Shown here piece by piece: positions 1,020 through 5,942 of a stretch of 64,000 nt of DNA. The DNA is taken from the NCBI RefSeq assembly GCF_001315015.1, contig NZ_CP012914.1:2166501-2230500 (forward strand), read 5' to 3'. This DNA comes from Azospirillum brasilense (GTDB taxonomy: Bacteria; Pseudomonadota; Alphaproteobacteria; Azospirillales; Azospirillaceae). The translations under genes were made by a program, and so were the position numbers. The notes under the pieces are model-generated. The model was not told where the DNA came from. It saw only the letters and a list, made by a program, of their open reading frames with translations, and made no database searches. Every line of letters starts with the position of its first letter. The first letter of the stretch is position 1.

Positions 1020-1023
<4 letters not shown>
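610..1023 (+). CDS. DUF962 / Mpo1-like membrane protein
   Basis: A 137-residue protein. The ATG at 610 is chosen because a strong ribosome-binding site, GGAAGGAG, lies 6 bases upstream; an earlier in-frame start at 520 lacks this. The N-terminus carries the DUF962 signature: FWPEYLEQH, then NRALHVAGT with its conserved His and Gly. Two hydrophobic stretches (about residues 30-65) suggest membrane insertion. Yeast Mpo1 of this family is a dioxygenase in 2-hydroxy fatty acid breakdown, but the role of bacterial members is not settled. Its stop overlaps the convergent alaS stop by four bases. Confidence 0.8.
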
Positions 1024-3689
<2,666 letters not shown>

Positions 3690-3866
3690 AAGCTGTCCAG
3701 GCTCCGGCTACGGTCGGCTACAATCGGCGGCGCGGCCTTGTTCGCGGCCGAACCGTGCTTTTAACGTGACTTGCGGTGGCTGTCCACCGAGTGCCCGCCA
3801 CTCCCCTGCGCGGCGACAGGCCGCGTGGACGGAGCGCCACACATTTGCATGATCATCGGCGCGGAC

Positions 3867-3888
3867 GGGCGGTGGATCACCACCGCCC
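3867..3888 (+). promoter_or_regulatory. Perfect 9-bp hairpin just upstream of the small-peptide ribosome-binding site
   Basis: GGGCGGTGG and CCACCGCCC form a perfect 9-bp stem around a four-base ATCA loop. It ends 10 bases before the AAGGAG ribosome-binding site of the 24-residue reading frame at 3913. A structured 5' leader of this kind could modulate translation or stabilise the transcript. The structure is seen in the sequence; the regulatory role is inference. Confidence 0.55.
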
Positions 3889-3912
3889 CGCCGCTCAGAA
3901 GGAGATGAGAGG

Positions 3913-3987
3913 ATGCGGAAAATCCTCGAACTCCTGATCCTGCTGTTGCGGGCGCTCAAGCTGCTGCTTGAGATCCTGAACCGCTAG
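3913..3987 (+). CDS. Putative 24-residue Leu-rich amphipathic peptide
   Basis: A very short frame beginning MRKILELLILLL and ending EILNR. The ribosome-binding site is perfect: AAGGAG at 3899-3904, 8 bases before the ATG. Eleven Leu and three Ile make up more than half of the peptide. The charged residues at 2, 6, 13, 16, 20 and 24 fall on one face of an alpha helix, giving a strongly amphipathic, membrane-active-looking helix. A 9-bp hairpin precedes the gene and a 12-bp hairpin follows the stop. It could be a type I toxin-like or membrane-associated small protein, or a component of an uncharacterised small RNA. I recognise no family. Translation is inferred from the ribosome-binding site and helix pattern. 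Confidence 0.5.
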   Translation: MRKILELLILLLRALKLLLEILNR

Positions 3988-3996
3988 GACCGGGCC

Positions 3997-4026
3997 GGCG
4001 GACGGGTGCTGGAACACCCGTCCGCC
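3997..4026 (+). terminator. 12-bp hairpin after the small-peptide gene
   Basis: GGCGGACGGGTG pairs perfectly with CACCCGTCCGCC around a CTGGAA loop, starting 9 bases after the stop of the 24-residue frame. It lacks a T tract on either strand, so it may stabilise the 3' end rather than terminate alone. The recA terminator lies 45 bases further on. Confidence 0.5.
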
Positions 4027-4070
4027 CAGCCTGAATGTAAGGTCTTTCCAGCCGTCCGGCAAGACGGCGA

Positions 4071-4104
4071 AAAGCCCCTCCCCGGCGGACCGGAGAGGGG
4101 CTTT
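4071..4104 (-). terminator. Bidirectional terminator after recA
   Basis: AAAGCCCCTC and GAGGGGCTTT form a 10-bp stem whose arms give T-rich ends in both directions. It lies 30 bases beyond the recA stop and can also serve the small plus-strand transcript from 3.9 kb. Confidence 0.8.
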
Positions 4105-4134
4105 CGCACAGAGAAACCGGCTTGCCGCCCGGGA

Positions 4135-5214
4135 TCACTCCGGCGTGGCGGCCTCGCCGTCGGCCTCCGGGGTGCCCATCATGGCGTCGGCGACGAGACC
4201 GGCGTTGCCGCGGATCTTCGCCTCGATGGCGTCGGCCGTGGCCGGGTTGTTGCGCAGGTAGTTCTTGGCGTTCTCGCGGCCCTGGCCGATGCGGGTACCG
4301 TCGTAGCTGAACCACGCGCCCGACTTCTCCACCACGCCGGCCTGGATGCCGAGGTCGAGAAGCTCACCCACCTTCGACACACCCTCGCCGTACATGATGT
4401 CGAACTCGACCACGCGGAACGGCGGGGCCATCTTGTTCTTCACCACCTTGACGCGGGTCTGGTTGCCCACCACCGTCTCGCGGTCCTTGATCGCGCCGAT
4501 GCGGCGGATGTCCAGACGGACGGAGGCGTAGAACTTCAGCGCGTTGCCGCCGGTCGTCGTCTCCGGGTTGCCGAACATCACGCCGATCTTCAGGCGGATC
4601 TGGTTGATGAAGATCACCAGGCAGTTCGACTTGGCGATGGAGCCGGTCAGCTTGCGCAGCGCCTGGCTCATCAGGCGGGCGTGCAGGCCGACGTGGCTGT
4701 CGCCCATCTCGCCTTCCAGCTCGGCGCGCGGCACCAGGGCCGCCACCGAGTCGACCACCAGCACGTCGACGGCGCCGGAGCGCACCAGCGTGTCGGCGAT
4801 CTCCAGCGCCTGCTCGCCGGCGTCGGGCTGGGAGATCAGCAGTTCATCCACATTCACGCCCAGCTTGCGGGCGTAGGACGGGTCCAGGGCGTGCTCCGCG
4901 TCCACGAAGGCGCAGGTGCCGCCGCCCTTCTGGGCCTGGGCGATGGCGTGCAGCGCCAGCGTCGTCTTGCCCGAGCTTTCCGGCCCGTAAATCTCGATGA
5001 TGCGGCCGCGCGGCAGGCCGCCGATGCCCAGCGCGATGTCGAGGCCGAGCGAGCCGGTGGAAACGACCTCCGTCTCGACCGTGTTCTCGCGGGCGCCGAG
5101 CTTCATGATCGAGCCCTTGCCAAAGGCGCGCTCGATCTGCGCCAGAGCGGCATCCAGGGCCTTCTGCTTATCCATGGAATCCTTCTCGACCAAACGAAGC
5201 TGTGCGGACGACAT
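4135..5214 (-). CDS. recA: Recombinase RecA
   Basis: DNA strand-exchange protein and LexA co-protease, 359 residues, a normal length. Walker A GPESSGKT is near residue 75, and the MAW-like loop-2 block [17 protein letters not shown] is present. The C-terminal tail is acidic. The start at 5214 ([12 protein letters not shown]...) has a GGGGAGA ribosome-binding site and matches the N-terminal extension seen in alphaproteobacterial RecA; Met14 is a less likely start. A GTTC-N7-GTTC LexA box lies 112-126 bases upstream, so SOS control is expected. Confidence 0.98.
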
Positions 5215-5325
5215 GCCCGTCTCCCCTTGTTAGATCACATCCGCGGCCCCAGGGCCAACGATCTCACCAACGGTCATTCGGTGAGAGGGAATGTACCAGC
5301 TTTGTTCCTCTGCGCAAAGCTCTAA

Positions 5326-5340
5326 GTTCCGCGAATGTTC
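5326..5340. promoter_or_regulatory. LexA (SOS) box between recA and a divergent methyltransferase gene
   Basis: GTTCCGCGAATGTTC is an exact GTTC-N7-GTTC direct repeat, the LexA operator form established for alphaproteobacteria. Read in the recA direction it is GAAC-N7-GAAC. It lies in the 155-bp gap between recA and the next plus-strand frame, so it could also affect that gene. Confidence 0.8.
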
Positions 5341-5438
5341 TCATCGTACGTTAGGAACGATCCGGCGCCATGCAACGGAATTCCATCGGCTGCGTTCAAC
5401 AGGAGACATCCCTCCAACGACACCCTGAAAAGCCGCGC

Positions 5439-5942
5439 ATGGCGTCCGTCCACTCCACGCTCGACCGCATGATCGACCGCCTCACCACCCAGCGCGTCGT
5501 GCTCGGCTGGGCCGCTGGCTGCGTCGCGGGAACGCCCGGTCTGGTGATGGAGATCGGTCTGGGGAAGGGCCGCACCTACGACCATCTGCGCAGCCTGTTC
5601 CCGCCACGCGACATCCTGGTGTTCGATATGTGGGCGCGGGTTCCCGCCTCCCTGCGTCCGGACGAGGACCGGCTGTTCCTTGGCGATTTCCGGGACACGC
5701 TGCCCGCCGCGACGGAGCCCTTCCGCGGTGCGGTGCGGCTGGCCCATGCCGACATCGGCAGCGCGCGGGAGGACGATGAGGATGGCATCCGCCACTGGAT
5801 CGGCGAGTTGATCGAACCCTTCCTGGCGCCGGGTGCCCTCGTCCTGTCGGACCGCCCGATCGGCGCGGAGCGTCGCCGCTGGGAAACTCTCGACGTTCCG
5901 GGAACGGAACGCTGGTCCTATCGCGGCTGGCGCGTCGGATAG
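5439..5942 (+). CDS. Class I SAM-dependent methyltransferase
   Basis: A small Rossmann-type methyltransferase of about 167 residues. The SAM-binding glycine motif VMEIGLGKGRTY is near residue 36, a motif II-like acidic strand (ILVFDMW) follows, and an AHADIG strand comes after it. The start is uncertain: 5439 (MASVHSTLDRM) removes a poorly conserved-looking extension, but an ATG at 5370 is in frame, and neither has a strong ribosome-binding site. The substrate is unknown. It is divergent from recA across the SOS box and convergent with cckA. Confidence 0.75.
   Translation: MASVHSTLDRMIDRLTTQRVVLGWAAGCVAGTPGLVMEIGLGKGRTYDHLRSLFPPRDILVFDMWARVPASLRPDEDRLFLGDFRDTLPAATEPFRGAVRLAHADIGSAREDDEDGIRHWIGELIEPFLAPGALVLSDRPIGAERRRWETLDVPGTERWSYRGWRVG

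Follow-up and report, generated by a model that had tools for sequence, protein, structure and literature searches.

Between alaS and recA in the window, as we call the whole 64,000-nt stretch of Azospirillum brasilense DNA analyzed here, lies a frame of only 24 codons enclosed by hairpins, which raises the question of whether so small a frame is a gene and, if so, what its product does. A sequence-only reading had likened the layout to that of type I toxins, and we found its ORF, its ribosome-binding site and both of its hairpins where it had placed them. Pfam identified the flanking genes, in agreement with that reading, as alaS (1020-3689) and recA (4135-5214), both on the minus strand and thus oriented opposite to the 24-codon ORF.

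A small peptide and its relatives in Azospirillum

The ORF (3913-3987, plus strand) encodes the peptide MRKILELLILLLRALKLLLEILNR and ends in TAG, with the Shine-Dalgarno (SD) sequence AAGGAG (3899-3904) 8 nt 5' of its ATG. With 11 Leu and 3 Ile among its residues, a composition that had been counted correctly, it is the kind of short hydrophobic peptide ORF (< 60 aa) expected of a type I toxin-antitoxin system. The peptide helix is amphipathic, with a hydrophobic moment of 0.614 that was reached by 0.28% of 5000 shuffles. It is not the ideal helix described before, since Lys3 (-98 degrees) and Lys16 (+122 degrees) sit on its flanks and Ile9 and Leu17 fall on the polar side, and the charged residues listed at 2, 6, 13, 16, 20 and 24 left out Lys3.

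An identical peptide is present in five genomes, the window's own included, and three more genomes encode peptides of 92-96% identity; since the peptide is conserved across genomes, a chance origin of the ORF is excluded. A search with the peptide alone (E <= 10) gave matches in 29 of 61 genomes, all from the single genus Azospirillum, and a 25-row peptide profile run over the order (E <= 1) matched 44 of 45 Azospirillum genomes (with E < 1e-4 in 42) and none of the 37 genomes from other genera. Over the class, a 48-row profile (E <= 0.01) matched two of 337 genomes, both Azospirillum, and an RNA covariance model of the unit matched 36 of 37 Azospirillum genomes. The one genome among these 37 that has no copy by either the peptide profiles or the RNA model is G032. 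When a degenerate DNA pattern was run over 84,980 species genomes, 91 stretches were returned: 86 in Azospirillum records, three in Roseomonas genomospecies 6, whose record corresponds to the in-genus genome G012, and two in unrelated metagenome-assembled genomes (L130 and L162), which were rejected as the family ORF is absent from them.

The window genome holds three copies of the unit. Covariance-model matches number two to nine per Azospirillum genome, with one genome having none, and these counts include a second peptide family and opposite-strand readings (four matches represent the three copies of the window genome). After repeats and one copy without a start codon were removed from 123 loci, 112 copies were kept for comparison; in five of these, the stop or the start is displaced and the frame spans 38-179 codons. 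PADLOC and NCBIfam gave no match for the family, PHROGs gave one match only (E = 0.97), and a PDB search returned nothing useful. The expectation that ordinary gene callers would miss such an ORF agrees with the copy on plasmid NC_013858.1, where no gene is listed in what is an incomplete gene table. Together, these sequence comparisons indicate that the ORF is a member of a real multi-copy small-gene family.

The length of the ORF is 23-27 codons in 107 of the 112 copies, and the SD and ATG are constant among copies. Across 88 distinct 66-nt ORF starts, mean entropy was lowest at codon position 2, with 0.38 bits, and was 0.73 bits at each of positions 1 and 3. Single-base codon changes in 776 close pairs were 44% synonymous, 34% conservative, 22% radical and 0% stop, compared to 30%, 28%, 40% and 2% expected for randomly placed changes; these coding statistics come from pairs that share ancestry and from copies whose selection by peptide profile favors intact frames. 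The codon-position and substitution patterns support coding. The sequence-only reading had staked its proposal on conservation of the frame among relatives and on synonymous-biased changes in homologs, and both expectations held, with low entropy at position 2, few radical changes and an excess of synonymous ones. The match list of the RNA model makes no use of the frame, and of 20 weaker matches taken from it, 15 have by our reading a short ORF that is intact, although in one of them the stop is displaced. In four others, which come from Azospirillum genomes, the unit is degenerate or interrupted (L242, L253, L256 and L258), and one is without an ORF (L255). The third positions of several codons (4, 8, 15 and 16) are invariant, which we read as a sign of a second constraint at the RNA level.

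RNA structure and predicted promoters of the unit

The RNA from 3860 to 4034 folds at -106.3 kcal/mol (z = -8.96), and 0 of 200 shuffles were as stable. On the plus strand, the predicted fold begins with a 5' hairpin (3861-3894) made of a 9-bp stem, GGGCGGTGG (3867-3875) with CCACCGCCC (3880-3888), and an outer stem (3861-3864/3891-3894). It continues with a start-codon hairpin (3909-3927; GAGGAT at 3909-3914 with ATCCTC at 3922-3927), a hairpin inside the ORF (3955-3972; CTCAAG at 3955-3960 with CTTGAG at 3967-3972) and a 12-bp 3' hairpin (3997-4026; 3997-4008/4015-4026) that would form the 5' end of an antisense RNA. In 56 aligned copies (55 representatives of 107 plus the window), 92.1% of cells pair in the consensus structure and 26 of 38 pairs show two-sided changes, with 219 two-sided cells compared to a shuffle mean of 71 and to 26-58 with slid partners; this alignment also served to derive the structure, a circumstance that favors the covariation. 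Two-sided changes occur at all 12 consensus pairs of the 3' hairpin, at five of six in the 5' hairpin and at two of five in the start-codon hairpin, where 96.1% of cells are paired. The motif TCAAG-N6-CTTGA of the internal hairpin is found in 103 of the 112 copies, with a standard pair (AT, GC, CG or GT) immediately outside it in 80 of the 103. As judged from the alignment, the RNA structure of the unit is conserved.

In the minimum free energy (MFE) fold, the predicted partner of the SD is CTCCTG (3931-3936), within codons 7-8. Among the MFE folds of 106 copies, 100 leave the SD mostly paired, compared to 56% of 170 synonymous recodings, and 94 put its partner within codons 5-13, compared to 46% of the recodings. 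The SD is nearly invariant and its pairing with codons 7-8 is without covariation support; the consensus fold pairs CTCCTGATC with a site 3' of the stop instead, and these two pairings may be alternative states. Since the SDs of alaS and recA are likewise predicted to be paired, SD pairing as such is not unusual in this GC-rich genome. A self-inhibiting mRNA, which is frequent but not universal among type I toxins, is nevertheless what prediction gives for this unit.

On the minus strand, a candidate antisense promoter (4034-4062) consists of a -35 element TTGCCG (4062-4057), a 17-nt spacer and a -10 element TACATT (4039-4034), matches 8 of 12 consensus bases and lies 46 nt 3' of the stop. This element, central to our interpretation, had escaped the sequence-only reading, which offered no evidence of an antisense RNA. 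The window's site was not called by a promoter tool with a stricter rule, and the case for it is its positional conservation. A downstream minus-strand sigma70-type site (at least 8/12) is present in 89 of 112 copies compared to 4-9 in dinucleotide shuffles; 88 of the 112 have it at a distance of 44-54 nt from the stop, with 17 as the best spacer in 72 of those 88. Even among copies whose downstream sequences are mutually dissimilar, 34 of 51 have the site, compared to 0-1 in mononucleotide shuffles. The same scan found sites in 12 of 112 copies in the sense direction downstream and in 13 of 112 in the antisense direction upstream, and the 22 of 112 in the sense direction upstream are hardly above the 7-20 in shuffles. 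The antisense hexamers vary by group (TTGCCG/TACATT, TTGCAA/CATCAT, TTGACA/CAATAT and TTGCCG/TATTTT) and their position is constant; a site with a TTG -35 element was not found in 8 of the 112 copies, three of them with a displaced stop.

While alaS adjoins 13 of the 112 copies, and recA is also in the sequence retrieved around 12 of these, neither gene is near the remaining 99, and the antisense promoter therefore belongs to the unit. In the window, it also faces alaS and could serve that gene. As suggested by the conserved promoter, an antisense RNA starting near 4027 would run across the ORF (3860-4028, minus strand). With the frame conserved and this promoter giving some evidence of an antisense RNA, the type I toxin-like layout proposed earlier is borne out as a layout, toxicity being the part that we infer. 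We also inspected the opposite strand for a peptide of its own and rejected the ORF that runs from a TTG at 4062 to 3895, because it starts 5' of the predicted antisense start and has no ATG.

For the sense RNA, there is a weak promoter candidate on the plus strand (3826-3853; TGGACG at 3826-3831, 16 nt, CATGAT at 3848-3853), and other copies have a site at this place, with at least 7/12 near -60 in 43 of 112 copies compared to 2-13 in mononucleotide shuffles. A terminator scan called no U-rich terminator inside the unit for either RNA. By eye, a GC-rich hairpin at 4070-4106, right after the recA stop and between recA and the antisense promoter, is probably the recA terminator, and the scan did not call it. 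The nearness of recA also led us to consider LexA control. Alphaproteobacterial LexA boxes have the form GTTC-N7-GTTC or GAAC-N7-GAAC, and neither was found within 300 nt upstream of any of the 112 copies, so SOS control was rejected. The only box of this form in 3601-5600 is the direct repeat GTTCCGCGAATGTTC at 5326-5340, which lies 5' of recA on the far side of that gene.

Other peptides and viral copies on the same scaffold

A second peptide, MxKMPFFLVLQWRRWRIEIRLIRR, is encoded at covariance-model matches in Azospirillum that are weak (E about 1e-8 to 1e-12). It is found in 25 of 37 Azospirillum genomes, is not significantly amphipathic and has no copy in the window genome. The fold was alike in the copy that we inspected. 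The start rule was fitted by 22 of 26 loci. Of these 22, 12 have a mostly paired SD, 19 have the partner of the SD within codons 5-13, and 20 have an antisense site that matches at least 7/12 (e.g., TTGAAA-N17-TATATT), one of the 20 being doubtful (L274, displaced stop). A class search with this family gave two weak matches outside Azospirillum, one of them with a stop. Yet another scaffold peptide, MIQWIILTKLLVELVQSIQAILVLLH, is encoded at L243.

Over the class (E <= 0.001), the covariance model matched 5 of 385 genomes, namely, two Azospirillum genomes, G091, G093 and G058, with E-values that are rough, so that the distant cases rest on shared anatomy. We define this anatomy, or scaffold, as a 5' hairpin, an SD and a start codon that are both masked by the first codons, an inner hairpin, a 3' hairpin and a convergent antisense promoter. 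G091 and G093, which are of the same family and outside Azospirillum, encode MLTEPKQPRSIELVFKGFGISLRLVIRF and a relative of it, with antisense sites of 10/12. In G058, where the peptide is MKLQIIALILQIITVVALVANIVHHW, the sense promoter matches 9/12, no antisense site of at least 7/12 was found, and a downstream ORF is weakly like viral helix-turn-helix (HTH) proteins (E 1.4e-4). G046, also outside Azospirillum, encodes MQRTFYWIFSIAIRIKIRKRVKK with an antisense site of 9/12 and a model match of just E = 0.018; at L263 in this genome, the unit ORF is seemingly interrupted, and a matching second half and 3' hairpin lie further downstream.

The DNA pattern also found the unit on two viral contigs, L219 and L220, which the covariance model scored at 114.8 and 79.5 bits. 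Since L219 shares 800 identical bases with Azospirillum genome G003 and encodes a terminase, it is probably a prophage. In both viral units, an HTH_3 gene lies 64-69 nt 3' of the stop. In the L219 unit, the inverted repeat GACGAAC-TCT-GTTCGTC was seen by eye in the spacer of the sense promoter, TTGACT-N17-TATTGT (9/12), and 52 nt 3' of the stop there is an antisense site that matches 8/12. Upstream of the L220 unit is a perfect repeat, GCGTACTCAGTACGC; its promoters, read by eye, reach 7/12 only, and the threshold scan called none. Eight more contigs from further viral patterns were rejected, as they had no family ORF and no convincing model match. In a phage collection, the viral unit had no DNA match and its HTH protein had two relatives. 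One phage (MW202613; L297:2290-2500) has, 5' of a relative of the L220 HTH gene, the palindrome CATACTGAGTATG, a structured stretch and, by eye, a 24-codon ORF, a layout that resembles the viral copies and in which the RNA model has no match at E <= 1. HTH genes were not found within 1400 nt of any of the 112 copies by phmmer with three viral HTH proteins, a search that did find the viral control loci. We regard as evenly balanced the proposition that the RNA scaffold defines an alphaproteobacterial superfamily of type I toxin-antitoxin systems with interchangeable peptides (Leu-rich, Trp/Arg-rich and others), and that phages carry it together with an HTH repressor that has its operators inside the toxin promoter, and probably contribute to its dissemination.

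A probable type I toxin-antitoxin-like module and its alternatives

Among known systems, AapA/IsoA of Helicobacter pylori is similar in that the AapA mRNA folds into a self-inhibiting form, as predicted for the Azospirillum unit. Further likenesses, as described in PMC8309996, are a 30-aa membrane peptide with an amphipathic helix, several homologs per genome and a cis-encoded antisense RNA, the last of which is predicted for the Azospirillum unit. The likeness is thus one of predicted architecture. The Ibs/Sib and ZorO/OrzO systems of Escherichia coli also have small hydrophobic toxins, and the Sib RNA overlaps its toxin gene; no Rfam family, those of antitoxin RNAs included, reached its gathering score in window 3000-5600, where the matches below threshold (27.6 bits with a threshold of 50, and symR at 22.6 with a threshold of 61) were rejected. 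The ZorO mRNA hides its own ribosome-binding site (PMC8309996). TisB/IstR of E. coli has a 29-aa amphipathic peptide (1.9% of shuffles as high), but IstR lies upstream of tisB, whereas the Azospirillum antisense promoter is downstream of the ORF; the Pfam family TisB_toxin (PF13939) matched the TisB control (2.5e-9) and none of the peptides tested. DinQ of the E. coli DinQ/AgrB system is a 27-aa Leu-rich peptide with a similar C-terminal pattern, and the family profile scores it at 8.0 bits, a score reached by 9 of 2000 shuffles, making the resemblance suggestive at most. DinQ differs in that its hydrophobic moment does not mark it as amphipathic (40% of shuffles reach it), and in PMC3567139, it is described as LexA-controlled, with separate antisense RNA genes. 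The part of the main text of an Azospirillum small-RNA study consulted here (PMC7685610) does not mention recA, alaS or a toxin, and we found no description of the family in the open-license literature on Azospirillum toxin-antitoxin systems and small RNAs or on alphaproteobacterial and Rhizobiales type I toxins, among the matches listed. The unit seems to represent a family of RNA-controlled toxin-antitoxin modules that has not been described.

Since a tiny membrane-type peptide, an mRNA predicted to silence itself, a predicted convergent antisense RNA, multiplicity and viral carriage come together here, we consider it quite likely that the 190-letter unit between alaS and recA is a type I toxin-antitoxin-like module. 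We infer that transcription of the sense RNA would start just 5' of the 5' hairpin and that the amphipathic, Leu-rich 24-residue peptide it encodes would be expected to enter the inner membrane. The mRNA would silence itself, as its SD would pair with codons 7-8 and its AUG would lie inside a hairpin. From the opposite-strand promoter past the stop, we would expect an antisense RNA that is complementary to the ORF over its full length and that would neutralize the toxin, either through a block of translation or through decay by RNase III. Release of the peptide would be triggered when the antisense RNA is lost or the mRNA opens, and the peptide would then depolarize the membrane or stop growth.

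The peptide could instead be a functional small membrane protein that is not toxic and is controlled post-transcriptionally by its structured mRNA and an antisense RNA; the strong conservation at the alaS-recA site, with identical peptides in several genomes, would suit such a housekeeping function. We judge this unlikely, because paralogs in most genomes of the genus, two viral copies and unrelated peptides on the same scaffold fit toxin-antitoxin modules better. It is far less probable that the unit is a regulatory RNA with an incidental ORF: the codon-position pattern, the scarcity of radical changes, the constant SD and ATG and the narrow range of ORF lengths argue against it, even though RNA structure is the strongest signal, several third codon positions are invariant and some RNA-model matches have broken or degenerate ORFs. 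Least probable, by a little, is a leader peptide or attenuator for a neighboring gene, with the minus-strand promoter being simply that of alaS, which lies downstream of it in the window and adjoins some copies, since both flanking genes run opposite to the ORF and the promoter-stop distance is kept in copies without alaS or recA nearby.

The tiny size of type I peptides and the lack of relatedness among them make such systems difficult to detect. In the toxin-antitoxin-like module proposed here, the conserved signature is the RNA scaffold and not the peptide, and a covariance model built from that scaffold reached peptides of other sequence, making this approach a general route to unannotated toxins. 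The proposal would also mean that genomes of a plant-associated genus each carry several switches of growth that are unstudied, one of them beside recA, and that there is a phage version wired to a repressor.
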